From Blepharisma japonicum (taxonomy: Eukaryota > Ciliophora > Heterotrichea > Heterotrichida > Blepharismidae), in the NCBI GenBank assembly GCA_949751835.1, contig CATKHK010000004.1, positions 62,001 to 126,000 of the forward strand: a DNA stretch of 64,000 nucleotides, given 5' to 3'. A program made the translations under genes and the position numbers. The notes beneath the pieces were generated by a model. The model was not told the DNA's origin. It searched no databases and saw only the letters and a list, made by a program, of their open reading frames with translations. Below, piece after piece: positions 40,922 through 63,921 of this stretch. Positions within the stretch are counted from its first letter, which is position 1. Each line of letters opens with the position of its first letter.

Positions 40922-42151
40922 ATGAACTATACTCCAAATTCTTCTTTTCTAGCAGCTACTCCAGAGCCTGGGATGCATAGATCACTACTAAAAGTAATCA
41001 TAACTTAGTTCGGCGGCGGCTTAAAATATACATCCAGTATCGAGCCTAAATACACTACTTCAAGCAGCAAATCATATACAAATTTACAATTTTCTTCCCA
41101 CTCACCTATTATGTTTGAGAAAACTAAAGTGCACATTTCTAATATTTTGCCAAAAATAGATTTAAACAAATATTTTGATGCTTGAAAAGTTTTTGTTATA
41201 AAAAGATTAGAAGCAAAAATTTTATTAGCTGATGATTTTAGGAAATTAAGAAGGAAAATAGTAAATGAAAGAAAATTAAGCAAGAAAACTAGTATAAGGC
41301 AAATCAAGCATAAAATTTTTATAAATTGGAAATCATTGATTATAAGAAATGATAAAGGATCGAAAATTTTATATAGTGCTTTGAAAAAAGTATTCAATTC
41401 TTGAAGAAAATATGTATCGAAAAGTAAAAGTAGGCATTTTATATCTTGAAAAGTCCAAGAACAATTAGCGTTAAAATTGCAATTTCAATTCTGAAGTCAA
41501 TGAAGAATTAAGTTTTTAAGGGCTCAAAAAATTAGGCAGCTTTTTAATTTTGCTGAAGTGGTATCTTTAAATTGAGCATTTCGGACATGAATTGAGGAAT
41601 GCAATATACAAATTAGATTAGACAGAATTCTAAAAAAATCGCTGAGAAAGCTTAGAAGCCTTAAACAGCGGTCAATACTAAGAGCTTGAAAAATTTCTAT
41701 CAAAGAAAGGCGCAGAAGCTCAAAAACAATAAAAAAGTATTTAATAAAAAATTTGTTGAGCTGCAAAATAGAGTGTCTTAGTTTATGAAAGCAAAAGGTA
41801 AAAGCCCAGAAAATCCTTAAAAGATGCTTAATAAAGCGAAAATCAAGGCTGGTGAAGGCTTGTATGCTCGTATGATATAAAAACAGATTTGCAAGTTTTA
41901 CAATAGAAGAAAGCATAAAATTAGCAAAAAGCTACATTGAAGATGAAATTAGGTCAGAATATGAACAAAAGATCAGTGATCTTAGAGCTAAGTTAGAAGA
42001 TCAAAATCAGGAATTTTTAAGAGAAAAACAGCATATGATGGAGAAACAGAAAAAAATGAAAACAATGTTAAGCTCGCATGCTGGTAGATTATATGATGAG
42101 TTGTGTCCAAGGCCTTTAAGTTCGAAAACAGGAGCAAAGAGCATTGTATAG
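40922..42151 (+). CDS. Sfi1-like centrin-binding repeat protein (intact parent copy)
   Basis: The spliced CDS is 405 codons (404 aa). A 15-nt intron (40994-41008, GTAATCATAACTTAG) lies after codon 24, and about ten Trp are written TGA. Residues 80-315 are a series of helical segments each with a central Trp: YFDAWKVFV (Trp83), FINWKSLI, FNSWRKYV, FISWKVQ, FWSQWRIKF, LNWAFRTWIE, LRAWKISIK, LSLWKQKV and MLVWYKNRF (Trp313). The spacing and the W-K/R pattern match Sfi1 repeats, which bind centrin. A C-terminal coiled coil (EDEIRSEYEQKISDLRAKLE) follows. Sfi1-centrin fibres work in basal bodies and, in contractile ciliates, in myonemes. The last two thirds of this gene were copied into the downstream array as pseudogenes. 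Read with the standard code it would appear as non-coding. Confidence 0.82.
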
Positions 42152-42355: not shown

Positions 42356-45097
42356 TTAATTATAGTGAAGTTGTCGCTTCAAAGAATATATCTTGCTGTG
42401 GCATCTTCCAAGTTGATACACTTTTTGATGCTTTGAATATAGACTTTGAAGCATGCATCTAAAACTCTCAAGAGGCAAATTTCAATTTCCGGCTGTATTC
42501 AAAAAGTCCATCTGATTTTCACTGATTCCCGTTAAAAATAAGCAAAAAATTGCTGACTCAAGCTGTGCTCCTCCTTCGTTAGTAGGCTTTAAAATCTTTT
42601 TTTTCTGCTTTCCTGGTATTCCTTTATAGAGCGTATCATGAGTTGGCGTTTTTCTGGAGATGTCATAAAATCCTGGTTCCATTTTCCTTATATGATGTGC
42701 AAGCTCATGCAAAAATATTACTTTTTGTGCACAAATACTTATTTCCTCATTATTATTATATTTTGAGTTAATAAGAATATCCCCTCCAAAAATTGTGACA
42801 CCTGCTAAATTATCTGGTAATGAAGCGAAATAAACTTGTTCATAATAGGGCTTCGTATTGTCGAATTTTAGATTAATTTTACTGAATCCTTCAGCAACTA
42901 CATTTGACTGAATCAAGTCTTTAAAATTATCTATTTGATCGTGATTAGGCTGAGTTATTTGGTTTGAGATTATTCTTATTACAAACGAATTTGTTTCTGC
43001 TATAAAATTTACAGCTTTTTCAGTGCGTCTTAAGCTTAGGCTAAATAAATTTTTGAGTTGTGAAAGTAGCCATTTTTTAACTTGAGGTTGAAATTCATTA
43101 AAAAGCATTTTTAGAATGTATGATTCTCTGAAATCATTTAAAAATCCAATAATCAATTTAGTGTCTATTTTAGATATCAGATTATCCCAAATGTCTAAGT
43201 TTTCAAGACAATTAACTCCAAGTTCCTGTTTTTCTTCTTCATTAGAAGGGGATTGACTGCTTTGGATTGTTAATGAATGCAAGTCGTGCAATGGATTAGT
43301 ATTCTCAAGATTATTTACGGTTTTTGCCTCTTCATTTTCTAACTTTTTCATTTCTTCTTTTTCATTTTCAACTTCCACTATTCATCTTTTCTTCCTGAAA
43401 TCAGTATCTCAGAAAATTTTCATGAGAATTTTAGCACAATATTCAGGATCATTATAGTCTACATTACTTAGACTAAATCCATTAACATGATTTGAAAACA
43501 AATTACCCATCTCAAATAAATCATGTCCTTTGCTTTTATCAAGGTAATTAATTAGAAGATCAATAAATCTTATAAAATATGTTGGTGCTCTTGTGACTAA
43601 ATAATCTATGTGTAGTTCTTGGAGAGCAGATAAAAAAAAAACTTTCGAATCGTATTCTGAAATCTTTTTAAAGTTTATGAAGTCTCTTTTATCAATTTTT
43701 GCATTTGCATTTTCATTTGCTTCAATAAACCCTGAAATCCTTTCTCAAGATTTAGGTAAAAATTGAAAAATTAATGAAAATATTTCCGAAGTTTTAGTAC
43801 CGTCCGCTATTGGGCATGCTCTAGAATTTTCATAGGCATTCTCCAAAAATTTGAAGGCGAACTCCAGTGCTGTAGTCTCAAACTCCTCATTAAGATTCTT
43901 GCTGGCATAATTCAATAGCAAGAGTTCTAAAATAATTTTTTCAGCATTGGAAATATCTTTATACCAACTATCCATTTGCCACACTTTTTTGAAGTATATT
44001 TCTAAAAATTTCTGATCACATGATGTGCTTTGTATTTGATATGTAGCTAGCAAACTAAATGCATCAAAGTTTGCTCTTCATATTTTTTCTGGGAGCATGC
44101 TTAAATACTCCGAAAGCTCTGATTCCGTGATTATAAACCCGATATTTCTTCGTTTATTATTTTTCATGTACCACTTGAGTATATTTATTGCTTCATTAAT
44201 ATATGATGATATAGCTTTGTCATCATCAAATATTTTTTTAGCCTTTTCCATATAAAAAGTTACATAAAATGAAATCCAATATTTGCTCTTAGCAAAAAAC
44301 TCATATTTATCAGACTCTGTTTTGAAGTTATTATTTACTTGCTTTTGAAGGATAAGTTCAAGAAAAGTTTGGGATCTTATTCTTTTAATGTTTTTGATTT
44401 CATCCTTACTTTCTTTTTCTTCTTCGATTTTTGTAGTAAAGTTCATATATCGACTTAAAACAATGAAGATATACTTTCATGTTTCTTCTTTTGTAATAAT
44501 CTTAACCACATCTGTTCAAAATTCTAAGGGAAATTCAAAATTGAGATTTTCAGCAAGTGTAAAACTCAAAAATTGCAAAAACCTCCTTAAGAGCAAATCG
44601 ATATAAAATTCTGAGCTATTTTCAGGATTAAACCTGAAGAAGTTTAATTGGAAAACTGATATAATTGTTGCAAACATATCTGGATTAAAAATTGAATTTT
44701 TTATTTTTGCAGCGAAGCAAGAGAGAGTAAAAATCTTTATTAATGCATCTATAGAGTATTCATCTCTAACGGTTGCTAATTTTATGACGAAATTTACAAG
44801 TTTTTGTGAACACGCTTCTAGCGACTTCAAAAAATCTTCATTTATCATTCTATGATAGTTTAGCATTGATCCCATGTAGTAAAAATCACATTTCCTTTGC
44901 AAATTTTGAGCTTCAGAGGGATTCAGAAGTAGAAAATTTACAAGTTGGTCCGCTTGGGAAATTTCTGATTCACTTAATGCTTGCTCATTTCACACTTCTG
45001 ATGATTTTGGCTTGCTTTTAAGCAATCTTGATATTAAATTTTTCATCATTGAATACAATTGATTAGATTTTCTTGGAGTGCTTTCGGATGTTCCCAT
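42356..45097 (-). CDS. Array peptidase-like gene, copy 1 (HELAHH present)
   Basis: There are 914 codons in one frame with TGA as Trp, start [13 protein letters not shown], stop TAA. Residues 1-520 are helical and rich in Leu, Phe and Asn, like an alpha-solenoid, with no recognised family. Residues 560-620 are a Glu/Lys/Asn-rich linker. The C-terminal 290 residues contain [15 protein letters not shown], then [17 protein letters not shown] with a zinc-binding HExxH (H797, E798, H801) and [12 protein letters not shown] (E841, E847). This resembles gluzincin metallopeptidases, where a downstream Glu is the third zinc ligand. No signal peptide or membrane helix is seen, so it is probably cytosolic. 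Substrate is unknown. The native promoter has been replaced by Sfi1-derived sequence beyond about 24 bp upstream of the ATG. Confidence 0.85.
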
Positions 45098-45126
45098 TAA
45101 AATTATTTATATAAAATAGCCCCATT

Positions 45127-45950
45127 TATTTTAAACAAATATTTTAATGCTTGAAAGCTTTTTGTTGTAAAAAGATTAGAAGCAAAAATTTTATTAGCTA
45201 ATCATTTTAGAAATTAAGAAGGAAAATATATATCGAAAAGTAAAATTAGGCATTTTATATCTTGAAAAGTCCAAGAACAATTTGTGTTAAAATTTAAATT
45301 CAATTTTGAAGCCAATGAAGAATTAAGTTTTTAAGGCCTCAAAAAATTAGGCAGCTTTTTAATTTTGCTGGTATCTTTAAATTGAGCATTTCGGACATGA
45401 ATTGAGGAATGCAACATACAAATTAGATTAGACAGAATTTTAAAAAAAATCGCTGAGAAAGCTTAGAAGCCTTAAACAGCGGTCAATACTTAAAGCTTGA
45501 AAATTTTCTATCAAAGAAAGGTGCGGAAGCTTAAAAACAATAAAAAAGTATTTAATAAAAAATTTATTGAACTGCGAAATAGAGTTTCTTAGTTTATAAA
45601 AGCAAAGGTAAAAGCCCAGAAAATCCTTAAAAGATGCTTAATAAAGCGAAAATCAAGGCTGGTGAAGGCTTGCATGCTAGTATGATATAAAAACAGATTT
45701 GAGGGTTTTACAATAGAAGAAAGCATAAAATTAGCAAAAAGCTGCATTGAAGATGAAATTAGATCAGAATATGAACAAAAATCAGTGATCTTAGAAGATC
45801 AAAATAAGGAATTTTTAAGAGAAAAACAGCATATGATTGAGAAAGAAAAAAAAAATGAAAACAATGTTAAGCTCGCATGCTGGTAGATTATATGATGAGT
45901 TGTGTCCAAGGCCTTTAAGTTCGATAACAGGAGCAAAGAGCATTACATAG
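45127..45950 (+). pseudogene. Truncated Sfi1-like copy 2
   Basis: It aligns with the parent gene from the codons around NKYFDAWK to the 3' end near 42151 but lacks the first exon and about 78 residues. An internal deletion removes the part matching parent 41240-41405. Frame changes in the AT-rich stretches prevent a long product. The 3' flank of the parent (42160-42280) is carried along up to about 46090. Confidence 0.85.
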
Positions 45951-46149
45951 ATAATAAACTAAATCTCTATTTTAAAATCTGAGAGATTAATCAACAATAT
46001 TTTAGGTTTCTGCCATTCTAAAAAATCTTGGGATTAATATTGTGATATAGATTCTTTAAATTCTGTGGGCAAGAAGAATGAATATAACACTTCTTCTGTG
46101 CTTGAGAAATTAAAGATAAGCATTAGGTATTAAAATTTCTATTTTTACA

Positions 46150-46355
46150 TAAATTATATTTTTAATAAAATACGCTGAAATGGTTCATATTTTGCAAGAG
46201 TGATTTTCAAAGGGAAAGTAATTCTTCAAGGGTCTCAATCCAGAGTTCATATACAAATATCTCTCATTATTTATTCCAATTTCATCGAGATGTATATATC
46301 CATTTTGTCCATAGGCTTTGAATTTGGCCAAATAACAACTATTAGCATAAAAAGG
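46150..46355 (-). pseudogene. Gene fragment of unknown origin inside array unit 2
   Basis: On the minus strand a short frame reads PFYANSCYLAKFKAYGQNGY, then IHLDEIGINNERYLYMNSG and LRPLKNYFPFENHSCKIW. The same stretch is in unit 5 (59148-59364), where an in-frame 6-bp difference keeps the frame, so it was coding when the units were formed. It is not in units 1, 3 and 4, which have lost it through deletions with different ends. I do not recognise the family. The surrounding gap (45951-46586) holds nothing else. Confidence 0.5.
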
Positions 46356-46586
46356 TCAATTTTACCAATAATATTAAAACCGTATTTCCCAGTTATATGA
46401 GCAAGAAAAATAGCCTAAAGCTAAATAGCATAATTCTTTATTAATGTAAAATGAAGGTATTAATTAATGAAGATAGGATTAGAGTAATAATAAATCACAA
46501 ATAATTAAAATCTTAAAATATAAAATTATAAATCTACTTGCAATTAAAAATCAAATACACAGAGGATTTTATACCTATTCAAAAAA

Positions 46587-49328
46587 TTAATTATAGTGAA
46601 GTTGTCGCTTCAAAGAATATATATTGCTGTGGCATCTTTCAAGTTCATACACTTTTTGCTTCTTTGAATATAGACTTTGAAGCCTGTTTCTAAAACTCTT
46701 GAGAGGCAAATTTCAATTTCCGGCTAAGTTCAAAAAGTTCATCTGATTTTCACAGATTCCCGTTAAAAATAAGCCAAAAATTGCTGACTCAAGATCTGCT
46801 CCTCCTTCGCTAGAAAACTTTAAACCCTTTTTTTTCTGCTTTCCTGGTATCCCTTTATAGAGTGTATCATGAGTTGGTGTTTTTATGGAGATATCATAAA
46901 ATCCTGGCTCCATTTTCCTTATATATTGTTCAAGCTCATGCAAAAATATTACTTTTTGTGCACAAATGCTTATTTTCTCATTATTATTATATTTTGAGTT
47001 GATAAGAATATCCCCTCCAAAAATTGTGACACCTGGTAAATTATCTGGTAATGAAGCGAAATAAACTTGATTATAATAGGGCTTCGTATTATCGAAATTT
47101 AGATTAATTTTACTGAATCCTTCAGTAACTACATTTGACTGAATCAGGCCTTTAAAATTATCTATTTGACCGTGATTAGGCTGAGTTATTTGGTTTGAAA
47201 TTATTCTTATTACAAACGAATTTGTTTCTGTTATAAAATTTACAGCTTTTACAGTACCTATTAAGCTTAGGCTAAATAAATTTTTGAGCTGTGAAAGTAG
47301 CAATTTTTTAACTTGAGGTTGAAATTCATTAAAAAGCATTTTTAGGATGTATGATTCTCTGAAATCATTTAAAAGTCCAATAATCAATTTAGTGTCTGTT
47401 TTAGATATCAGATTATCCCAAATGCCTAAGTTTTCAAGATAATTAACTCCAAGTTCCTGTTTTTCTTCTTCATTAGAAGGGGATTGACTGCTTTGGATTG
47501 CTAATGAATGTAAGTTGTGCAATGACTTAGTATTTTCAAGATTATTTACGATTTTTGCTTCTTCATTTTCTAACTTTTTCATTTCTTCTTTTTCTTTTTC
47601 AACTTCCACTATTCATCTTTTCTTCCTGAAATCAGTATCTCAAAAAATTTTCATTAGAATTTTAGCACAATATTCAGGATCATTATAGTCTACATTACTT
47701 AGGCTAAATCCATTAACATGATTTGAAAACAAAATGCCCATCTCAAATAAATCATGTCCTTTGCTACTCTGAAGGTAATTAATTAGAAGATCAATAAATC
47801 TTATAAAATATGATGGAGCTCTTTTAACTGAATAATCTACGTGCAATTCTTGGAGAGTAGACAAAAAAAAAGCTTTCATATGGTAGTCTCTAGTCTTTTG
47901 AAAGCTTATTAAGTCTCTTTTATTGATTTGTGCATTTGCATTTTCATTTGCTTCAATAAATTCTGAAATCCTTTCTCAAGATTGAGGTAAAAATTGAAAA
48001 ATTAATGAAAATATTTTTGAAGTTTTAGTACCGTCCGCTATTGGGTATTCTCAAGAATTTTCATAGGCATTCTCCAAAAATTTAAAGACGAAATCCACTG
48101 CTGTAGTCTCAAGCTCCTCATTAAGATTCTTGCTGGCATAATTCAATAGCAAGAGTTCTAAAATAATTTTTCCAGCATAGGAAATATCTTTATACCAGCT
48201 ATCCATTTGTCATACTTTTTTGAAGTATGTTTCTAAAAATTTTCGATCACATGATGTGCTTTGTATTTGATATGTAGCTAGCAAATCAAATGCATCAAGG
48301 TTTGCACTCCATATTTTTTCTGGGAGCATGTTTAAATACTTCGAAAGCTCTGATTCCGTGATTATAAACCCTATATTTCTTTGTTTTTTATTGTTCATGT
48401 GCCAATTGAGTATCATCATTACTTCATTAATATATGATGACATAGCTTCTTCATCATCAACTATTTTTTTAGCCTTTTCCATATAAAAATTTACATAAAA
48501 TGAAATCCAATATTTGCTCTTAGTAAAAAACTCATATTTATCAGACTCTGTTTCGAAGTTATTATTTACTTGCTTTTGAAGTATAAGTTCAAGAAAAATT
48601 TGAGATCTTATTCTTTTAATGCTTTTGATTTCATCCTTACTTTTTTTTTCTTCTTCAATTTTTGTAGTAAAATTCAAATATCGACTTAAAGCAATGAAGA
48701 TATACTTTCATGTTTCTTCTTTTGTAATAATCTCCACCACATCTGTTCAAAATTCTAAGGGAAATTCAAAATTGAGATTTTCAACAAGTGTAAAACTCAA
48801 AAATTGCAAAAACCTCCTTAAGAGCAAATCAATATGAAATTCTGAACCATTTTTAGGATTAAACCTTAAGAAGTTTGATTGAAAAACTGATATTATTGTT
48901 GCAAACATTTCTGGTTCAAAAATTGAATTTTTTATTTTTGCAGCGAAGCAAGAGAGAGTAAGAATCATTATTAATGCATCTATAGAGTATTCATCTCTAA
49001 CGTTTGCTAATTTTAAGATGAAATTTGCAAGTTTTGGTGAACATGCTTCTAACGACTTCAAAAAATCTTCATTTATCATTCTATGATAGTCTAGCATTGA
49101 TCCCATGTAGTAAAAGTCACATTCTATTTGCAAATTTTGAGCTTCAGAGGGATTCATAAGCAGAAAACTTACAAGTTGATCCGCTTGGGAAATTTCTGAT
49201 TCACTTAATGCTTGCTCATTTCACACTTCCGATGATTTTGGATCGCTTTTAAGCAATCTTGATATTAAATTTTTAATCATTGGATACAATTGATTAGATT
49301 CTCTTGGGGTGCTTTCGATCATTCCCAT
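46587..49328 (-). CDS. Array peptidase-like gene, copy 2 (HELEQY, predicted pseudoenzyme)
   Basis: There are 914 codons in one uninterrupted frame with TGA as Trp, the same length as copy 1, start [17 protein letters not shown]. The solenoid-like N-terminal half and Glu/Lys linker match copy 1 closely. The C-terminal domain keeps [15 protein letters not shown] and [20 protein letters not shown], but the zinc motif reads HELEQYIRK: the second His is Gln and the next residue is Tyr. Zinc binding as in HExxH is therefore unlikely. It starts about 20 bp from the Sfi1-like pseudogene to its right and is followed on its 3' side by the unit-2 gene fragment. The frame is kept despite motif loss, which suggests function without catalysis, or a recent change. 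Confidence 0.85.
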
Positions 49329-49356
49329 TAAAATTATTTATATAAAATAGCCCCAT

Positions 49357-50346
49357 TTATTTTAAACAAATATTTTGATGCTTGAAAGCTTTTTGTTTTA
49401 AAAAGATTAGAAGCAAAAATTTTATTAGCTGATCATTTTAGGAAAGTAAGAAGGAAAATAGTATATGAAAGAAAATTAAGCAAGAAAACGAGTATAAATC
49501 GAATCAAGTATAAACAATTTTATCAATTGGAATAATTTGATTATAAGAAATGATAAAGGATTGAAAATTTTTATAGAGTGCTTAAAAAAGTATTCAATTC
49601 TTGAAGAAAATATGTATCGAAAAGTAAAAGTAGACATTTTATATCTTGAAAAGTCCAATAACAATTTGCGTTAAAATTAACATTTCAATTTTGAAGCCAA
49701 TGAAGAACTAAGTTCTTAAGGGCTAAAAAATTAGGCAACTTTTTAATTTTGCTGAAGCAGTATCTTTAAATTGGGCATTTCAGACATGAATTGAGGAATG
49801 TAACATACAAATTAGATTAGACAGAATTTTAAAAAAAACGTTGAGAAAACTCTGAAGCCTAAGCAGTAGTCAATACTTAAAGCTTGAAAAAATTCTACCA
49901 GAGAAAGGCGCAGAAGCTCAAAAACAATAAAAAAGTATTTAATAAAAAATTTATTGAGCAGCAAAATAAAGTGTCCTAGTTTATAAAAGCAAAAGGTAAA
50001 AGCCCAAAAAATCCTTAAAAGATGCTTAATAAAGTGAAAATCAAGGCTGGTGAAGGCTTGTATGCTAGTATGATATAAAAACAGATTTGCAAGTTTTACA
50101 ATAGAAGAAAGCATAAAATTAGCAAAAAGCTACATTGAAGATGAAATTAGGTCAAAATTTGAACAAAATCAGTGATCTTAGAGCTAAGTTAGAAGATCTG
50201 AATCAGGAATTTTTAAGAGAAAAACAGCACATGATGAAGAAACAGAAAAAAAATGAAAACAATGTTAAGTTCGCATGCTGGTAGATCATATGATGAGTTG
50301 TATCCAAGGTCTTTAAGTTCGAAAACATGAGCAAAGAGCATTTATA
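49357..50346 (+). pseudogene. Truncated Sfi1-like copy 3
   Basis: It begins at the shared breakpoint (ILNKYFDAWKLFV) and stays in frame for about 60 codons with KRLEAKILLADHFRKVRRK, then shifts at the AT-rich stretch near 49520. Later parts (EESIKLAKSYIEDEIRS and the Ser-His-Ala-Gly C-terminus) are recognisable. The parent's first exon is missing. Confidence 0.85.
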
Positions 50347-50532
50347 GATAATAAACTAAATCTCTATTTTAAGTTCTGAGATATTAATCAACAATATTTT
50401 AGGTTTCTGTTATTCTAAAAAATCTTAGAATAATAATGAATCACAAATAGTTAAAATCTTAAAATATAAAATTATAAATCTACTTACAATGAAAAATCAA
50501 ATGCACAGAGGATTTCATACCTATTCAAAAAA

Positions 50533-53277
50533 TTAATTATAGTGAAGTTGTCGCTTCAAAGAATATATATTGCTGTGGCATCTTCCAAGTTCATACACTT
50601 TTTGCTTCTTTGAATATAGACTTTGAAGCCTGTTTCTAAATCTCTCAAGAGGCAAATCTCAATTTCCGTCTGTGTTTAAAAAGTCCATCTGATTTTCACA
50701 GATTCCCGTTAAAAATAAGCCAAAAATTGCTGACTCAAGATCTGCTCCTCCTTCGCTAGAAAACTTTAAACCCTTTTTTTTCTGCTTTCCTGGTATCCCT
50801 TTATAGAGTGTATCATGAGTTGGTGTTTTTCTGGAGATGTCATAAAATCCTGGTTCCATTTTCCTTATATGCTCTTCAAGCTCATGCAAAAATATTATTT
50901 TTTGTGAACAAATGCTTATTTCCTCATTATTATTATATTTTGAATTAATAAGAATATCCCCTCCAAAAATTGTGACACCTGGCAAATTACCTGGTAATGA
51001 AGCGAAATAAACTTGATCATAATAGGGCTTCGTATTATCGAATTTTAAATTAATTTTACTGAATCCTTCAGCAACTACATTTGACTGAATCAGGCTTTTA
51101 AAAGTATCTATTTGATCGGGCTTAGGTTGAGTTATTTGGTTTGAAATTATTCTTATTACAAACGAATTTGTCTCTGCTATAAAATTTACAGCTTTTTCAG
51201 TGCGTCTTAAGCTTAAGCTAAATAAATTTTTGAGTTGTGAAAGTAGCAATTTTTTAACTTGAGGTTGAAATTCATTAAAAAGCATTTTTAGAATGTATGA
51301 TTCTCTGAAATCATTTAAAAGTCCAATAATCAATTTAGTGTCTGTTTTAGATATCAGATTATCCCAAATGTCTAAGTTTTCAAGACAATTAACTCCAAGT
51401 TCCTGCTTTTCTTCTTCATTAGAATGGGATTGACTGCTTTGGATTGGTAATGAATGCAAGTTGTGCAATGGATTAGTATTTTCAAGATTATTTATGATTT
51501 TTGCCTCTTCATTTTCTAACTTTTTCATTTCTTCTTTTTCTTTTTCAACTTCCACTATTCATCTTTTCTTCCTGAAATCAGTATCTCAAAAAATTTTCAT
51601 TAGAATTTTAGCACAATATTCAGGATCATTATAGTCTACATTACTTAGACTAAATTCATTAACATGATTTGAAAACAAAATATCCATCTCAAATAAATCA
51701 TGTCCTTTGCTACTCTGAAGGTAATTAATTAGAAGATCAATAAAACTTATAAAATATGCTGGAGCTCTTTTAACTGAATAATCTACGTGCAATTCTTGGA
51801 GAATAGACAAAAAAAACGCTCTCAAATAGTAGTCTCTAGTCTTTTTAATGTTTATTAAGTCTCTTTTATCTATTTTTGCATTTGTATTTTCATTTTCATT
51901 TTTACTTGCTTCTATAAATTCTGAAATCCTTTCTCATGATTGAGGTAAAAATTGAAAAATTAATGAAATTATTTCCGAAGTTTTAGTACCATCGCCTATT
52001 GCGTATTCTCAAGGATTTTCATAGACATTCTCCAAAAATTTACAGGCGAAATTCACTGCTGTAGTCTCAAGCTCCTCATTAAGAGTCTTGCTGGCATAAT
52101 TCAATAGCAAGAGTTCTAAAATAATTTTTCCAGCATAGGAAATATCTTTATACCAGCTATCCATTTGCCACACTTTTTTGAAGTATATTTCTAAAAATTC
52201 TTGATCACATGATGTGCTTTGTATTTGATATGTAGCTAGCAAATCAAATTCATGAAGGTTTGCTCTTCATATTTTTTCTATGTTTAAATACTTCGAAAGC
52301 TCTGATTCCGTGATTATAAACCCTATATTTCTTTGTTTTTTATCGTTCATGTACCAATTGAGTATATTCATTGCTTCATTAATATATGATGACATAGCTT
52401 TTTCATCATCAACTATTTTTTTAGCCTTTTCCATATAAAAATTTACATAAAATGAAATCCAATATTTGCTCTTAGAAAAAAACTCATATTTATCAGACTG
52501 TGTTTCGAAGTTATTATTTACTTGCTTTTGAAGGATAAGTTCAAGAAAAATTTTGGATCTTCTTCTTTTAATGCTTTTGATTTCATCCTTACTTAATTTT
52601 TCTTCTTCAATTTTTGTAGTAAAGTTCAAATATCGACTTAAAACAATGAAGATATACTTTCATGTTTTATTTTTTGTAATAATCTCCACCACTTCTGTTC
52701 AAAATTCTAAGGAAAATTCAAAATTGAGATTTTCAACCAGTGTAAAACTCAAAAATTGCAAAAACCTCCTTAAGAGCAAATCGATATAAAATTCTGAGCT
52801 ATTTTCAGGATTAAACCTGAAGAAATTTGATTGGAAAATGGATATGATTGTTACAAACATTTCTGGTTCAAAAATTGAATTTTTTATTTTTGCAGCAAAG
52901 CAAGACAGAGTAAAAATCTTTATTAATGCATCTATAGAGTATTCATCTCTAACGGTTGCTAATTTTATGATGAAATCTGCAAGTTTTGGTGAACACGCTT
53001 CTAGCGACTTCAAAAAATCTTCATTTATCATGCTATGATAGTTTAGCATTGATCCCATGTAGTAAAAATCGCAATCTCTTTGCAATATATGAGCTTTAGA
53101 GGGATTTAGAAGCAGAAAATTTACAAGTTTGTTCGCTTGGGAAATTTCTGATTCACTTAATGCTTGCTCATTTCACACTTCTGATGATTTTGGATCGCTT
53201 TTAAGCAATCTTGATATTAAATTTTTCATCATTGGATACAATTGATTAGATTCCTGGGTGCTTTCAAGCATTTCCAT
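50533..53277 (-). CDS. Array peptidase-like gene, copy 3 (HELEEH, predicted pseudoenzyme)
   Basis: There are 915 codons (914 aa), open throughout with TGA as Trp, start [16 protein letters not shown]. Compared with copies 1 and 2 it has in-frame changes only: one codon lost near the start, two lost in the NIEKI segment, and a few gained in an Asn/Glu run ([12 protein letters not shown]). The zinc motif reads HELEEHIRK. The first His-Glu pair is kept, the second ligand position is Glu, and a His follows one residue later. [12 protein letters not shown] is kept. In-frame-only indels argue that the coding frame was under selection after duplication. I do not recognise a named family. Confidence 0.85.
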
Positions 53278-53307
53278 TAAAATTATTAATATAAAATAGC
53301 CCCATTT

Positions 53308-53996
53308 ATTTTAAACAAATATTTATGCTTGAAAGCTTTTTGTTGTAAAAAGATTAGAAGCAAAATTTTATTAGCTGATCATTTTAGGAAATTAAGAAGG
53401 AAAATAGTATTTTGAAGCCAATGAAGAACTAAGTTCTTAAGGCTAAAAAATTAGACAGCTGCTGGAAATGGTATCTTTAAATTGGACGTTTCTGGCATAA
53501 ATTGAGGTATGCAACATACAAATTAGATTAGACAGAATTCTATAATAATAACTGAGAAAGCTTAAAAGCCTTAAACGGTGGTCAATACTTAAAGCTTGAA
53601 AAATTTCTATTAAAGAAATGCTCTGAAGCTCAAAAACAATAAAAAAGTAAAGGCCAGAAAACCCTTAAAGGATACTTAATAAAGCGAAAATTATGGCTGG
53701 TGAAAGGTTGCATGTTAGTATTGTATAAAAACAGAATTGCAAGTTTTACATAGAAGAAAGCAAAAAATTAGCAAAAAGCTACATTGAAGATAAAATTAGG
53801 TCGGAATATGAACAAAAAATCAATGATTTTAGAGCTAAATTGGAAGATCAAAATCAGGAATTTTTAAGAGAAAAAAGCATATGATGGGGAAACAGAAAAA
53901 ATGAAAACAATATTAAGCACGCATGCTGGGAGATTATATGATGAGTTGTGTCCAAGGCCATTAAGCTCACAAATTGAGACAAAAAGTGATATAGGG
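53308..53996 (+). pseudogene. Truncated Sfi1-like copy 4 (divergent subtype, shared with copy 7)
   Basis: It starts at the common breakpoint but is shorter, with a large internal deletion after about 53410. It shares many substitutions with copy 7 and with no other copy, for example the 3' part reading EDKIRSEYEQKINDFRAKLE and the ending CPRPLSSQIE. After it the sequence matches the flank that follows copy 7, up to the point where a peptidase fragment begins. Confidence 0.8.
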
Positions 53997-54039
53997 GTAA
54001 TAAATTAAATTTCTATTTTAAACTCTGAGAAATTAATCA

Positions 54040-54163
54040 TTAATGCTTGCTCATTTCACACTTCCGATGATTTTGGATCGCTTTTAAGCAATCTTGATAT
54101 TAAATTTTTAATCATTGGATACAATTGATTAGATTCTCTTGGAGTGCTTTCGATCATTCCCAT
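54040..54163 (-). pseudogene. 5' fragment of a peptidase-like gene (first about 41 codons)
   Basis: It reads [19 protein letters not shown], then [17 protein letters not shown] and ends abruptly at flanking sequence that follows Sfi1-like copy 4. It closely matches the 5' ends of copies 2 and 4. It marks a unit that lost nearly all of its peptidase gene by deletion. Confidence 0.85.
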
Positions 54164-54189
54164 TAAAATTATTTATATAAAATAGCCCC

Positions 54190-55085
54190 ATTTATTTTAA
54201 GCAAATATTTTGATGCTTGAAAGCTTTTTGTTGTAAAAAGATTAGAAGCAAAAATTTTATTAGCTGATCATTTTAGGAAATTAAAGAAGGAAAATAGTAA
54301 ATGAAAGAAAATTAAGCAAGAAAACGAGTATAAATCAAGTATAAAAAATTTTATCAATTGGAATAATTTGATTATAAGAAATGATAAAGGATTGAAAATT
54401 TTTATAAAGTGCTTAAAAAAGTATTCAATTCTTGAAGAAAATATGTATCGAAAAGTAAAAGTAGGCATTTTATATCTTGAAAGTCCAATAACAATTTGCG
54501 TTAAAATTAACATTTCAATTTTGAAGCCAATGAAGAACTAAGTTCTTAAGGGCTAAAAAATTAGGCAACTTTTTAATTTTGCTGAAGCAGTATCTTTAAA
54601 TTGGGCGTTTCAGACATGAATTGAGGAATGCAAACTTCAAATTAGTTTAGACAGAATTCTAAAAACAACGCTGAGAAAACTCAGAAGCCTAAGCAGTGGT
54701 CAATACTTAAAGCTTGAAAATTTTCTATCAGAAGCTCAAAAACAATACAAAAGTTTTTAATAAACATTTATTGAGCAGCAAAATAGAGTGTCTTAGTTTA
54801 TGAAAGTAAAAGGTAAAAGCCCTTAAACCTTAAAAATTTAAAGGTAAAAGCCCAGAAAATCCTTAAAAGATGCTTAATAAAGTGAAAATCAAGGCTGGTG
54901 AAGGCTTGCATGCTAGTATGATATAAAAACAGATTTGCAAGTTTTACAATAGAAGAAAGCATAAAATTAGCAAAAAGCTGCATTGAAGATGAAATTAGAT
55001 CAGAATATGAACAAAAATCAGTGATCTTAGAGCTAAGTTAGAAGATCGAAATCAGGAATTTTTAAGAGAAAAACAGCACATGATG
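54190..55085 (+). pseudogene. Truncated Sfi1-like copy 5
   Basis: It begins at the shared breakpoint and belongs to the same subtype as copies 3 and 6. It has frame changes in the AT-rich stretches, a short local duplication (the KGKSP-coding segment near 54810-54860) and a missing 3' end, where it joins peptidase 3' flank near 55090. Confidence 0.8.
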
Positions 55086-55206
55086 AGAGAGATAATGATT
55101 AGAATAATAATGAATCACAAATAGTTAAAATCTTAAAATATAAAATTATAAATCTACTTACAATGAAAAATCAAATGCACAGAGGATTTTATACCTATTC
55201 AAAAAA

Positions 55207-57942
55207 TTAATTATAGTGAAGTTGTCGCTTCAAAGAATATATATTGCTGTGGCATCTTCCAAGTTCATACACTTTTTGCTTCTTTGAATATAGAATTTGA
55301 AGCATGTGTCTAAATCTCTCGAGAGGCAAATCTCAATTTCCGTCTGTGTTTAAAAAGTCCATCTGATTTTCACAGATTCCCGTTAAAAATAAGCCAAAAA
55401 TTGCTGACTCAAGATCTGCTCCTCCTTCGCTAGAAAACTTTAAACCCTTTTTTTTCTGCTTTCCTGGTATCCCTTTATAGAGTGTATCATGAGTTGGTGT
55501 TTTTCTGGAGATGTCGTAAAATCCGGGTTCCATTTTTCTTATATGCTCTTCAAGCTCATGCAAAAATATTATTTTTTGTGCACAAATGCTTTTTTCCTCA
55601 TTATTATTATATTTTGAATTAATAAGAATATCCCCTCCAAAAATTGTGACACCTGGCAAATTATCTGGTAATGAAGCGAAATAAACTTGATCATAATAGG
55701 GCTTCGTATTATCGAATTTTAGATTAATTTTACTGAATCCTTCAGCAACTACATTTGACTGAATCAGGCCTTTAAAAGTATCTATTTGATCGGGCTTAGG
55801 TTGAGTTATTTGGTTTGAAATTATTCTTATTACTAACGAATTTGTCTCTGCTATAAAATTTACAGCTTTTTCAGTGCATCTTAAGCTTAAGCTAAATAAA
55901 TTTTTGAGTTGTGAAAGTAGCAATTTTTTAACTTGAGGTTGAAATTCATTAAAAAGCATTTTTAAAATGTATGATTCTCTGAAATCATTTAAAAGTCCAA
56001 TAATCAATTTAGTGTCTGTTTTAGATATCAGATTATCCCAAATGTCTAAGTTTTCAAGACAATTAACTCCAAGTTCCTGCTTTTCTTCTTCATTAGAATT
56101 TGATTGACTGCTTTGGATTGGCAATGAATGTAAGTTGTGCAATGAATTAGTATTTTCAAGATTATTTACGGTTTTTGCCTCTTCATTTTCTAACTTTTTC
56201 ATTTCTTCTTTTTCTTTTTCAACTTCCACTATTCATCTTTTCTTCCTGAAATCAGTATCTCAGAAAATTTTCATTAGAATTTTAGCACAATATTCAGGAT
56301 CATTATAGTCTACATTACTTAGACTAAATTCATTAACATAATTTGAAAACAAAATACCCATCTCCAATAAATCGTTTCCTTTGTTACTCTGAAGGTAATT
56401 AATTAGAAGATCAATGAAACTTATAAAATATGCTGGAGCCCTCTTAACTGAATAATCTACGTGCAATTCTTGGAGACTAGACAAAAAAAAAGCTTTCAAA
56501 TAGTAGTCTCTAGTCTTTTCAAAGTTTATTAAGTCTCTTTTATCCATTTTTGCATTTGCATTTTCATTTGCTTCAATAAATTCTGAAATCCTTTCTCAAG
56601 ATTGAGGTAAAAATTGAAAAATTAATGAAAATATTTTTGAAGTTTTAGTACCGTCCGCTATTGGGTATTCTCAAGGATTTTCATAGGCATTCTCCAAAAA
56701 TTTAAAGGCGAAATCCACTGCTGTATTCTCAAGCTCCTCATTAAGAGTCTTGCTGGCATAATTCAATAGCAAGAGTTCTAAAATAATTTTTCCAGCATAG
56801 GAAATATCTTTATGCCAGCTATCCATTTGCCACACTTTTTTGAAGTATATTTCTAAAAATTCTCGATCACATGATGTGCTTTGTATTTGATATGTAGCTA
56901 GCAAATCAAATGCATTAAGGTTTGCTCTTCATATTTTTTCTATGTTTAAATACTTCGAAAGCTCTGATTCCGTGATTATAAACCCTATATTTCTTTTTTT
57001 TTTATTTTTCATGTACAACTTGAGTATATTTATTGCTTCATTAATATATGATGACATAGCTTTGTCATCATCAACTATTTTTTTAGCCTTTTCCATATAA
57101 AAATTTACATAAAATGAAATCCAATATTTGCTCTTAGCAAAAAACTCATATTTATCAGACTGTGTTTCGAATTTATTATTTACTTGCTTTTGAAGGATAA
57201 GTTCAAGAAAAATTTGGAATCTTCTTCTTTTAATGTTTTTGATTTCATCCTTACTTTCTTTTTCTTCTTCAATTTTTGTAGTAAAGTTCAAATATCGACT
57301 TAAAACAATGAAGATATACTTTCATGTTTCTTCTTTTGTAATAATCTCCACCACTTCTGTTCAAAATTCTAAGGAAAATTCAAAATTGAGATTTTCAACA
57401 AGTGTTAAACTCAAAAATTGCAAAAACCTCCTTAAGAGCAAATCGATATAAAATTCTGAGCTATTTGAAGGATTAAACCTGAAGAAGTTTGATTGGAAAA
57501 TGGATATGATTGTTACAAACATTTCTGGTTCAAAAATTGAATTTTTTATTTTTGCAGCGAAGCAAGACAGAGTAAAAATCTTTATTAATGCATCTATAGA
57601 GTATTCATCTCTAACGGTTGCTAATTTTATGATGAAATCTGCAAGTTTTGGTGAACACACTTCTAGTGACTTCAAAAAATCTTCATTTATCATGCTATGA
57701 TAGTCTAGCATTGATCCCATGTAGTAAAAATCGCATTCTCTTTGCAATATTTGAGCTTCAGAGGGATTCATAAGCAGAAACTCTACAAGTTGATCCGCTT
57801 GGGAAATTTCTGATTCACTTAATGCTTGCTCATTTCACAGTTCTGATGATTTTGGATCGCTTTTAAGCAATCTTGATATTAAATTTTTAATCATTGGATA
57901 CAATTGATTAGATTCTCTTGGGGTACTTTCGATCATTCCCAT
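55207..57942 (-). CDS. Array peptidase-like gene, copy 4 (HELEEH, predicted pseudoenzyme)
   Basis: There are 912 codons (911 aa), open throughout with TGA as Trp, start [13 protein letters not shown]. It is closest to copy 3 in the C-terminal domain: [21 protein letters not shown], and the same two-codon loss at NIEKI. It keeps the linker [19 protein letters not shown] and [18 protein letters not shown]. The zinc site is again missing the second His. The spacing to the neighbouring Sfi1-like pseudogene is the same as in the other units, so it too has a replaced upstream region. Function is unknown; if expressed, it may act as a non-catalytic partner or decoy of the copy-1/5 type, which is speculation. 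Confidence 0.85.
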
Positions 57943-57971
57943 TAAAATTATTTATATAAAATAGCCCCATT

Positions 57972-58947
57972 TATTTTAAGCAAATATTTTAATGCTTGAA
58001 AGCTTTTTGTTGTAAAAAGATTAGAAGCAAAATTTTTGTTAGCTGATTATTTTAGGAAATTAAGAAGGAAAATAATATATGAAAGAAAATTAAGCAAGAA
58101 AATGAGTATAAATCAAATCAAGTATAAAAAATTTTATCAATTGGAATAATTTGATTATAAAAAATGATAAAGGATCGAAAAATTTTATGGAATGCTTTAA
58201 AAAAGTATTCAATTCTTGAAGAAAATATGTATCGAAAAATAAAAGTAGGCATTTTCATATCTTAAAAAGCCCAAGAACAATTTGCGTTAAAATTAAAATT
58301 TCAATTTTGAAGCCAATGAAGAACTAAGTTCTTAAGGGCTAAAAAAATAGGCAGCTTTTTAATTTTGCTGAAGTGGTATCTTTAGATTGGGCGTTTCAGA
58401 CATGAATTGAGGAAAATACATACAAATTAGATTAGACAGAATTTTAAAAAAATCACTGAGAAAACTCAGAAGCCGAAGCAGTGGTCAATACTTAAAGCTG
58501 AAAATTTTCTATCAGAGAAAGGCGCAGAAGCTCAAAAACAATACAAAAGTTTTTAATAAAAATTTATTGAGCTGCAAAATAGAGCGTCTTAGTTTATGAA
58601 AGCAAAAGGTAAAAGCCCAGAAAATCCTTAAAATATGCTTAATAAAGAGAAAATCAAGACTGGTGAAGGCTTGCATGCTAGTATGATATAAAAACAGATT
58701 TGCAAGTTTTACAATAGAAGAAAGCATAAAATTAGCAAAAAGCTACATTGAAGATGAAATTAGGTCAAAATTTGATCAAAAATTAGTGATTAGAGCTAAG
58801 TTAGAAGATCAAAACCAGGAATTTTCAAGAGAAAAACAGCATATGATGGAGAAACAGAAAAAAATGAAAACAATGTTAAGCTCGCATGCTGGTAGATTAT
58901 ATGATGAGTTGTGTCTAAGGCCTTTAAGTTCGAAAACAGGAGCAAAG
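57972..58947 (+). pseudogene. Truncated Sfi1-like copy 6
   Basis: It begins at the shared breakpoint and covers the parent to its 3' end, with small indels that break the frame. The parent's 3' flank follows to about 59070, as in copy 2. Its 3' part is very close to the parent (SHAGRLYDELCLRPLSS). Confidence 0.85.
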
Positions 58948-59147
58948 ATAATAAACTAAATCCCTATTTTAAGCTCTGAGATATTAATCAATATTTTAGG
59001 TTTCTGCCATTCTAAAAGATCTCAGGATTAATAGTGTGATATAGATTCTTTAAATTCTGTGGGCAAGAAGAATGAACATAGCACTTCTCCTGTGCTTGAG
59101 AAATTAAAGATAAACACTAGGTATTAAAATTTTTATTACTACATAAA

Positions 59148-59364
59148 TTATATTTCCACATGAAATGCGCTGAAATGGTTACTCTTTGACTCTAAATCTC
59201 ATATTTTACAAGAGTGATTTTCAAAGGGAAAGTAATTCTTCAAGGGTCTCAATCCAGAGTTCATATACAAATATCTCTCATTGTTTATTCCAATTTCATC
59301 TATATATCCATTCTGTCCATAGGCTTTGAATTTGGCCAAATAACAACTATTGGCATACAAAGGA
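59148..59364 (-). pseudogene. Gene fragment of unknown origin inside array unit 5
   Basis: This is a minus-strand frame of about 72 codons ending in TAA: NCPLYANSCYLAKFKAYGQN, GYIDEIGINNERYLYMNSGL, FPFENHSCKIWDLESKSN. It is the counterpart of the fragment in unit 2 and differs from it by a 6-bp in-frame loss. Upstream the frame closes at once. The family is not recognised. The rest of the gap 58948-59525 is AT-rich flank. Confidence 0.5.
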
Positions 59365-59525
59365 CAATTTTTTTACAATAATATTAAAACCACATTTCCC
59401 TGTTATATGAGCAAGAAAAATAGCCTAATAATAATTCACAAATAATTAAAATTTAAAATATAAAATTATAAATCTACTTTAATGAAAAATCAAATACACA
59501 GAGGATTTTATGCCTATTCAAAAAA

Positions 59526-62264
59526 TTAATTATAGTGAAGTTGTCGCTTCAAAGAATATATCTTGTTGTGGCATCTTCCAAGTTGATACACTTTTTGATG
59601 CTTTGAATATAGACTTTGAAGCCTGTTTCTAAATCTCTCGAGAGGCAAATTTCAATTTCCGGCTCTATTCAAAAAGGCCATCTGATTTTGACTGATTCCC
59701 GTTAAAAATAAGCAAAAAATTGCTGACTCAAGCTCTGCTCCTCCTTCATTAGCAATCTTTAAAATCTTTTTTTTCTGCTTTCCTGGTATCCCTTTATAGA
59801 GCGTTTCATGAGTTGGCGTTTTTCTGGAGATGTCATAAAATCCTGGTTCCATTTTCCTTATATGATGTGCAAGCTCATGCAAAAATATTACTTTTTGTGC
59901 ACAAATGCTTATTTGCTCATTATTATTATATTTGGAGTTAATAAGAATATCCCCTCCAAAAATTGTGACACCTGCTAAATTATCTGGTAATGAAGCGAAA
60001 TAAACTTGTTCATAATAGGGCTTCGTATTATCGAATTTTAGATTAATTTTGCTGAATCCTTCAGCAACTACATTTGATTTAATCAGGCCTTTAAAAGTAT
60101 CTATTTGATTGTGATTAGGTTGAGTTATTTGGTTTGAAATTATTCTTATTACAAACGAATTTGTTTCTGCCATAAAATTTACAGCTTTTTCAGTGCGTTT
60201 TAAGCTTAGGTTAAATAAATTTTTGAGTTGTGAAAGTAGCCATTTTTTAACTTGAGGTTGAAATTCATTAAAAAGCATTTTTAGAATATATGATTCTCTG
60301 AAATCATTTAAAAGTTCAATAATCAAGCTATTGTCTATTTTAGGTATCAGATTATCCCAAATGCCTTTTTTATAAAAACAATTAACTCCAAGTTCCTGTT
60401 TTTCTTCTTCATTAGAATGGGATTGACTGCTTTGGATTGTTAATGAATGCAAGTTGTACAATGGGTTAGTATTTTCAAGATTATTTACGGTTTTTGCCTC
60501 TTCATTTTCTAACTTTTTTATTTCATCTTTTTCATTTTCAACTTCCTCTATTCATCTTTTCTTCCTGAAATCAGTATCTCAGAAAATTTTCATGAGAATT
60601 TTAGCACAATATTCAGGATCATTATAGTCTACATTACTTAGACTAAATCCATTAACATGATTTGAAAACAAATTATCCATCTCAAATAAATCATGCCCTT
60701 TGGTTTTATCAAGGTAATTAATTAGAAGATCAATAAATCTTATAAAATATCTTGGAGCTCTTGTGACTAAATAATCTATGTGCAGTTCTTGGAGAGCAGA
60801 TAAAAAAAAAACTTTCGAATGGTATTCTGTAATCTTTTTAAAGTTTATTAAGTCTCTTTTATCCATTTTTGCATTTGCATTTTCATTTGCTTCAATAAAC
60901 CCTGAAATCCTTTCTCAAGATTTAGGTAAAAAGTGAAAAATTAATGAAATTATTTCCGAAGTTTTAGTACCGTCCGCTATTGGGCGTGCTCTAGAATTTT
61001 CATAGGCATTCTCCAAAAATTTGAAGGCGAACTCCAGTGCTGTAGTCTCAAACTCCTCATTAAAGGTCTTGCTGGTATAATTCAATAGCAAGAGTTCTAA
61101 AATAATTTTTTCAGCATAGGAAATATCTTTATACCAGCTATCCATTTGCCACACTTTTGTGAAATATATTTCTAAAAATTTTCGATCACATGATGTGCTT
61201 TGTATTTGATATGTAGCTAGCAAACTAAATTCTTCAAGGTTTGCTCTTCATATTTTTTCTGGGAGTATCTTTAAATAATTCGAAAGCTCTGATTCCGTGA
61301 TTATAAACCCGATATTTCTTCGTTTTTTATTGTTCCAGTACCAATCGAGTATACTCATTGCTTCATTAATATATGATGACATAGCTTCTTCATCATCAAA
61401 TATTTTTTTAGCCTTTTCCATATAAAACTTTACATAAAATGAAATCAAATATTTGCTCTTAGCAAAAAACTCATATTTATCTTCTGTTTCGGAGTTATTA
61501 TTTACTTGCTTTTGAAGGATAAGTTCAAGAAAAATTTGGGATCTTATTCTTTTAATGTTTTTGATTTCATCCTTACTTTCTTTTTCTTCTTCAATTTTTG
61601 TTGTAAAGTTCATATATCGACTTAAAACAATGAAGATATACTTTCATGTTTCTTCTTTTGTAATAATCTTAACCACATCTGTTCAAAATTCTAAGGGAAA
61701 TTCAAAATTGAGATTTTCAACAAGTGTAAAACTCAAAAATTGCAAAAACCTCCTTAAGAGCAAATCGATATAAAATTCTGAGCTATTTGAAGAATTAAAC
61801 CTGAAGAAGTTTGCTTGGAAAACTGATACAATTGTTACAAACATTTCTGGTTCAAAAATTGAATTTTTTATTTTTGCAGCGAAGCAAGACAGAGTAAAAA
61901 TCTTTATTAATGCATCTATAGAGTATTCATCTCTAACGGTTGCTAACTGCATGATGAAATCTGCAAGTTTTGGTGAACACTCTTCTAATGACTTCAAAAA
62001 AACTTTATTTATCATGCTATGATAGTTTAGCATTGATCCCATGTAGTAAAAATCGCATTCTCTTTGCAAATTTTGAGCTTCAGAAGGATTCAGAAGCAGA
62101 AAATTTACAAGTTGGTCCACTTGGGAAATTTCTGATTCACTTAATGTTTGCTCATTTCACACTTCCGATGAATTTGGATCGCTTTCGAGCAATCTTGATA
62201 TTAAATTGTTCATCATTGGATACAATTGATTAGTTTCTCTTGGGGCGCTTTCAAGCATTTCCAT
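59526..62264 (-). CDS. Array peptidase-like gene, copy 5 (HELAHH present)
   Basis: There are 913 codons (912 aa), open throughout with TGA as Trp, start [17 protein letters not shown]. Like copy 1 it keeps the full zinc motif [17 protein letters not shown] and [20 protein letters not shown], and it shares with copy 1 several other residues ([35 protein letters not shown]). Copies 1 and 5 thus form one subtype at the two ends of the array, with copies 2-4 in the middle. The linker lacks one Met found in the others ([19 protein letters not shown]), which is harmless. A cytosolic zinc peptidase is inferred; substrate and inhibitor are unknown. Confidence 0.85.
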
Positions 62265-63245: not shown

Positions 63246-63921
63246 ACATTACTATCTATCATGTTTAATACATATTGACATAGTTTTGTCATCATCAACC
63301 ATTTTTATAGCTTTTTAAATATAAAAATTTACATAAAATGATGTCCAATATTTGCTCTTAAACTAAAGTCAAAATTGAGTTTTTTGGCAAGTGTGAAATT
63401 CAAAAATTGTAAAAACCTCCTTAAGAGAAAATCTATATATAATCCTGGGCTATCTTCTTGAATAAATCTGAAGAAGTTTAATTGGAAAAATGACATGATT
63501 ATTTCAAACACTTCTTGGCCAAAAATTAAATTGCCTATTTTTTCAGCGAAGCATGAGAGGGTAAGAATCTTAATTAATGAATCTATACAGAATTGATCTC
63601 TGATAGCTATTGATTTTATAATCCAGCTTACAAGATCTGGCAAATACGCTTCTAGCGACTTTAAAAAGCCCTCGTTTATTATGCTAGCGTAGTTTAGCAT
63701 TGATCCCATATAATAAAAACATCATTGACCTTCCAAATATTGAGATTTAGGCTTTAGAAGTACAGATTTTACAATTGTATATAAATATCTGATTCACTTA
63801 ATTTTTGCTCATTACATATTTCCGAAGAATTTGGATTACTTTGAGTAATCTTCATACTAATTTCTTATGATTTGATAAAGTTTAGGCTCTGATGTTCCTT
63901 GAGCCTTTCTAATGGTTGCAT
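63246..63921 (-). pseudogene. Decayed sixth peptidase-like copy with native upstream flank
   Basis: Only the 5' part is left. About 126 codons (63329-63709; [20 protein letters not shown], then [20 protein letters not shown]) match residues 75-200 of the other copies at clearly lower identity. They are joined by an internal deletion to a short piece matching the following segment (63265-63355). The start region near 63921 (MQPLERLKEH) is followed by early stops. Beyond it, 63922-64000 continues without any Sfi1-derived sequence, so this copy seems to keep the original upstream region of the ancestral gene. Confidence 0.75.

Follow-up and report, generated by a model that had tools for sequence, protein, structure and literature searches.

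Five tandem genes of a candidate zincin-like family in a Blepharisma-like macronuclear genome, three of them with an altered HExxH motif

Metallopeptidase homologues that have lost their catalytic motif and are retained for non-catalytic roles (metallo-pseudopeptidases) are described in the passages cited here of a review (PMC11266112). We analysed a tandem array of five genes on contig C4 of a 45.2-Mb assembly of 224 contigs, which lies in a window of 64,000 nucleotides (bases 62001-126000 of the contig; positions below are counted from the first base of the window). The outer two of the five encoded proteins carry a HExxH motif with a downstream glutamate and the inner three have lost HExxH, while all five reading frames are held open by selection.

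The M1 and M13 gluzincins resemble the array family in having HExxH, which in the array family lies in a predicted helix, and a downstream glutamate. The spacing between the second histidine and this glutamate is 27-44 residues in the array family, compared with 18 in M1 and 58 in M13 in the part of the review drawn on here (PMC11266112). The differences are that no sequence or significant fold match links the two, that the motifs E-x-G-x-x-x-E and T-P are features of the array family, and that its zinc binding is putative. The inactive chloroplast M41 homologues FtsHi1-5 are alike in that HExxH has been lost in relatives; they are AAA proteases, with a layout unlike that of the array family. 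According to the same passages, FtsHi4 reads REAAV, comparable to the RExxH found in some members of the array family, and FtsHi proteins carry an ATP-binding motif (PMC11266112). Retention of catalytically incomplete copies is also described for the same kind of ciliate: of the eight PiggyBac homologues in Blepharisma, one has the full catalytic triad and the others are apparently under purifying selection, as given in the portion of that study cited here (PMC9942806). These are transposase-derived proteins and no peptidases. Their ratios of nonsynonymous to synonymous substitution rates (dN/dS), for incomplete against complete homologues, are given there as 0.0076-0.1351 (PMC9942806), far below those of recent copies of the array family, in a comparison of pairs that differ in age. 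The kind of system is therefore known; what appears new, within the scope searched, is the family itself and how many separate losses a single genome contains.

Copies 1 to 5 are found at 42356..45097 (913 amino acids), 46587..49328 (913), 50533..53277 (914), 55207..57942 (911) and 59526..62264 (912), all on the minus strand. A first-pass annotation, made from the sequence alone, had described five intact tandem paralogues of 911-914 amino acids with in-frame indels and a motif split between outer and inner copies, and each of these points was borne out. The long frames are open only if TGA is read as Trp (genetic code 4), with 8-9 in-frame TGA codons per gene; under table 11, as under codes that reassign TAA and/or TAG, no listed frame inside the array genes is longer than 298 amino acids. 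DNA identity is 91.9-96.3% over the 10 gene pairs, and copies 2-5 are 86-89% identical to copy 1 at the protein level. The motif reads HELAHH in copies 1 (residues 797-802, codons at 42692..42709, minus strand as for all motif codons) and 5 (59862..59879), HELEQY in copy 2 (46923..46940), and HELEEH in copies 3 (50869..50886) and 4 (55543..55560). The candidate third zinc ligand lies in NEGGAQLE (residues 840-847 of copy 1, codons at 42557..42580), and the glutamate of this EGG motif is retained in all five copies, the site-lost ones included. In a tree of the C-terminal domain the inner copies 2-4 form one clade (support 100/99, and 92/98 without the motif columns). Copies 2-4 would be pseudopeptidases, with the motif lost and the frame maintained, provided that the family is a peptidase at all. 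The motif as a substitution hotspot was considered and found weak: codon column 804 shows three parsimony changes on an assumed tree, 20 other codons have equally many and two have more. Codons 2-5 show more changes than any other three-codon stretch of the array genes; copies 1, 2 and 4 start with MGxxES and copies 3 and 5 with MEMLES, and these differences perhaps stem from gene conversion. We take the MGxxxS start of copies 1, 2 and 4 to be N-myristoylation-like.

The spacers between the genes provide a yardstick for neutral decay. Each tandem unit consists of an array gene plus a spacer, and the spacer adjoining copy 1 is part of a likely intact plus-strand gene at 41111..42151 (346 amino acids, Lys/Trp-rich, 10 TGA-Trp codons). 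Duplication into the spacers took in most of this neighbour gene but not its first 50 or so bases, so the other spacers hold 5'-truncated copies of it. Those in spacers 1-2 (45098..46586), 2-3 (49329..50532) and 4-5 (57943..59525) are frame-broken. Spacer 3-4 (53278..55206) consists of two spacer stretches flanking a 41-codon 5' fragment of a family gene (about 54041..54163, minus strand) with 99% DNA identity to copy 2, probably the scar of a deleted copy. Upstream of copy 5 lies a decayed sixth copy (about 63264..63852, minus strand) in three pieces with 56-61% identity to copy 5. Among the spacer stretches (15 pairs, identity 82-96%), 186 of 213 indels break the frame, whereas none of the 18 indels among the array genes does so, all being multiples of three (10 pairs, identity 92-96%); the pairs share history and are thus not independent. 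The count covers neither the first stretch of spacer 3-4 with the fragment, nor the copy-1 side before 41161, nor the region upstream of copy 5 after 63250. From the pooled spacer ratio per substitution, 22, 18, 17 and 11 frame-breaking indels would be expected for the gene pairs 1-2, 2-3, 2-4 and 3-4, and the lowest single spacer ratio still predicts 15, 12, 12 and 8. Since spacer indels mostly break the frame and gene indels never do, selection maintains all five frames, those of the inner copies included, and this comparison rules out that the inner copies are ordinary pseudogenes.

Substitutions point in the same direction with less force. By the Nei-Gojobori method, with bounds obtained by bootstrap, dN/dS over the 10 array pairs is 0.49-0.75 for the full length and 0.37-0.81 for the C-terminal part. 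In the first-pass annotation, dN/dS well below 1 in copies 2-4 was to count as support: the three inner pairs have full-length values of 0.49-0.58 with upper bounds of 0.71-0.91, all below 1 but only moderately low. Full-length upper bounds reach 1.05-1.10 for pairs 1-5, 3-5 and 4-5 and 1.00 for pair 2-5. In the C-terminal part the inner pairs have values of 0.37-0.44, with an upper bound of 0.88 for two of them and of 1.40 for pair 3-4; the bound is below 1 in only three of the 10 pairs (1-4, 2-3 and 2-4). Constraint on the array copies is therefore real but moderate, and the indels give it the firmest support.

The altered motif is not confined to the array. Searching the genome by tblastn with copy 1 as query gave 25 places, with further places found by other members, and the family has 24 or more members, counting pieces as well as genes. 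The domain tree has 24 rows, namely the five array copies and sequences from contigs C8, C127 (two), C3 (three, plus a partial one at 495 kb), C31 (two), C1, C41, C10, C51, C43 (five) and C39 (partial). Fragments on C15, C21, C33, C41 (at 47 kb), C73, C97 and C113, the relics, and a domain-less relative on C95 stand outside it. HExxH is intact in 14 rows, copies 1 and 5 among them, which on this motif would be gluzincin-type sequences, and is lost in the other 10, among them copies 2, 3 and 4. When the motif columns are removed before tree building, its state changes seven times, in C39, C41, the pair C43a/b, C31b, C127b, C8 and the inner three copies of the C4 array. The C39 sequence is partial and on a long branch, the N-terminus of C8 is in another frame and C43c is broken upstream; plain subtraction of C39 and C8 leaves five changes. 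Both branches of the deepest fork include intact rows, and the direction of change would therefore be loss. An intact tandem paralogue lies nearby in four of the seven cases (C4, C127, C31 and C43), and tandem copies occur on these contigs and on C3. As for the proposed split into enzyme-like and pseudoenzyme-like members, coexisting motif-intact and motif-lost paralogues are seen elsewhere in the genome as well. The glutamate of HExxH is retained in all 24 rows, and the first histidine is replaced by Arg in four (C8, C31b, C41 and C39). Of the 22 rows that are long enough, all but C127b have E-x-G (21 rows), and the seventh position is Glu in 20. The five related C43 genes form two clusters and have an acidic low-complexity insert directly before the motif helix, and YEIAQL is found in two of the copies, which are adjacent. 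In the C95 relative (C95:114300-117500), 795 codons stay open (781 counted from the first Met); the frame retains the N-terminal region and stops just short of the domain core, which fits either a catalysis-free role of the N-terminus or a dying copy.

The model of the C-terminal domain (17 rows) is alpha/beta, with a mean predicted local distance difference test score (pLDDT) of 73.5 and a predicted template modelling score (pTM) of 0.74. HExxH (domain residues 151-155) lies within helix 139-160 after strand 128-131, in a block with pLDDT 84-92, and the E-x-G glutamate (residue 195) directly precedes helix 196-205. A strand ahead of the motif helix is what we take to be the zincin arrangement. 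With pLDDT 65.6 and pTM 0.41, the model of the whole protein consists of helices as far as about residue 564, is unsure over 565-675 and is alpha/beta thereafter. In Foldseek searches with the domain, 9 of the best 50 of 53 BFVD matches have names that we take to denote peptidases or zincin-type proteins (ranks 1, 2, 3, 8, 10, 11, 12, 17 and 30). Seven of these are within the first 12, all nine have expectation (E) values of 0.39 or worse, and this is a raw count without a background rate. Viral SprT, IrrE and M48-type proteins are among these weak fold neighbours, at E values of 1.4 or above and with no sequence match. With the full-length protein, 25 of the best 50 of 711 PDB matches are the exportin CRM1/XPO1 (E of at least 0.012); the best match has E 0.0073, and the exportin and designed-repeat matches among these 50 have template modelling (TM) scores of at most 0.29. 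An ARM/HEAT-like helical repeat was considered for the N-terminus on these grounds and is a candidate only.

Sequence searches covered Pfam (copies 1, 2, 3 and 5 at full length, copy 4 as the C-terminal domain alone) and, for the domain rows, Pfam and NCBIfam. No family reached its displayed curated cut-off for array proteins or domain rows. Among further alignment members the best Pfam E value was 0.00063 (a DDHD domain, in one row), with no peptidase among the best 25 of 36 families. PDB sequence searches gave best E values of 0.058, 0.052 and 0.25, all to unrelated molecules. Scans of GTDB contigs and viral contigs confirmed no relatives and plasmids gave no match; two Microviridae matches in a phage search (E 0.4-0.6) are regarded as chance. 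Each of these scans was based on a single protein or on no more than two short peptide patterns, and distant relatives would escape them. No publication on the protein family of the array, and none on a Blepharisma metalloprotease, was found as judged by titles and abstract openings. Within these searches the family accordingly appears unrecognised, as had been proposed, and the gluzincin match that would have supported the first-pass reading did not appear at significance in Foldseek, Pfam or NCBIfam. The models agree with the helical N-terminus and alpha/beta C-terminal domain of the suggested layout, and its peptidase part found no significant Foldseek match, so that the first-pass interpretation is partly supported.

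We tentatively favour, at close to an even chance, a zincin-like family that evolves fast, is probably intracellular and gives rise to pseudopeptidase paralogues again and again. The intracellular location is proposed solely because no signal peptide was seen by eye at the N-terminus. The proteins would have three parts: a long helical N-terminus that extends to about residue 564, a linker without order over about 565-675 and, from about 700 to 895, a zincin-like metallopeptidase domain at the C-terminus. Amplification in the array would have yielded two copies whose HExxH...ExG site is complete and one three-copy clade in which the second putative zinc histidine is replaced. Intact members may bind zinc and cleave proteins. 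Site-lost members would still fold, might use the helical region and what is left of the domain to bind the same partners or substrates, and could serve as non-catalytic partners or competitors of their intact paralogues; the decoy or partner role named in the first-pass annotation is likewise conjectural.

Several results weigh against this proposal. In the domain model, residues 169-193, between HExxH and the E-x-G glutamate, have pLDDT below 50. At E of 0.001 or less, none of 491 PDB and none of 53 BFVD fold matches of the domain qualified, and the best 50 of the PDB matches are 49 protein kinases and one KIND domain (TM 0.11-0.16), with no metallopeptidase. The profile phrog_87 ('metallo-protease') matched weakly in 3 of 17 rows (best E 0.015, the displayed row aligned over the motif region), and unrelated profiles do as well or better: 4 of 17 rows match acireductone synthase of NCBIfam, at E 0.013 or worse, and 5 of 17 match phrog_3327, a profile whose function is unknown, at E 0.0048 or worse. 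Profile support for a metallopeptidase is at chance level. The upper bound of C-terminal dN/dS exceeds 1 in five of six pairs of a motif-intact and a motif-lost copy. Family pairs on other contigs have dN/dS of 0.73-1.25 if recent and 0.36-0.37 if older (pair C10-C41 is saturated), and the recent values fit relaxed constraint as well.

Birth and death under weak constraint, by unequal exchange among mostly redundant copies in which the zinc site is lost early, before the copy dies, is a possible though rather doubtful account. The decayed sixth copy, the 41-codon scar, the broken-looking pieces on C15, C21, C33 and C41, the C95 frame cut before the domain core and the loose constraint on recent pairs in other clusters would all be expected from it. 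It is countered by the strong result of the frame test for all five copies, by the full-length bounds below 1 for the inner pairs, and by the EGG and HExxH glutamates kept in the site-lost C4 copies. That the family is no peptidase, and HExxH a structural helix motif of another fold whose variation has no catalytic meaning, we consider doubtful. The lack of a significant family, PDB or fold match suits it, as does a glutamate that stays invariant while the histidines vary, which would be odd if catalysis were the sole constraint. Against it, HExxH and the downstream E-x-G persist among rows with only 20-33% identity to copy 1, the motif helix follows a strand, and peptidase or zincin-type names are borne by seven of the first 12 BFVD matches, weak as these are. 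A conflict family (defence, predator-prey or self/non-self), with acting intact copies, site-lost decoys or immunity partners and fast diversification of both, would match the tandem copies on five contigs, the copy turnover, the high recent-pair dN/dS and the repeated site loss, but shows no recognised conflict domain and is unlikely.

Returning to the zincin-like family with recurrent pseudopeptidases, an extended form of it, which we regard as improbable, would be an intracellular system of heterotrich ciliates in which a new zincin family serves as fast-evolving recognition machinery and tandem arrays repeatedly turn some copies into pseudopeptidases without zinc, which act as partners of the intact copies beside them or as shields against these. 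If the family is what we propose, it would be a new metallopeptidase-like family in which one genome offers roughly five to seven natural replicates of pseudoenzyme origin. In some of these the copies would differ by only about 0.1 synonymous substitutions, and a comparison of young sister copies would make the retention of dead enzymes directly testable.

The telomere-like repeat CCCTAACA forms tandem runs in the assembly, where it matches 77 times in forward and 91 times in reverse orientation, with no match for the reversed control. The run on contig C4 stops 4 bases short of the contig end, and among the matches listed no forward run is farther than about 425 bases from the start of its contig. 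As reported in the portion of the genome paper used here, B. stoltei also reads TGA as Trp, has a telomere unit identical to CCCTAACA and has an AT-rich somatic genome of 41 Mb (PMC9942806). Because code and telomere unit are common to both, the assembly is taken as a Blepharisma-like macronuclear genome.

The 346-residue protein of the neighbour gene at 41111-42151 has no Pfam match. By eye, its repeated W(K/R) spacing presumably resembles Sfi1 centrin-binding repeats. A second gene per spacer on the minus strand (a 303-residue frame at 41005-41916, Leu/Phe-rich by eye) was considered and set aside, as this frame is broken in the other spacers and the plus-strand 346-residue frame is likelier. 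Elsewhere in the window, a single 3549-residue dynein-heavy-chain frame with 13 TGA-Trp codons lies on the minus strand at 25792-36441 (DHC_N2, E 1.7e-64), and a 1495-residue frame with a protein kinase domain is found on the plus strand at 21-4508.

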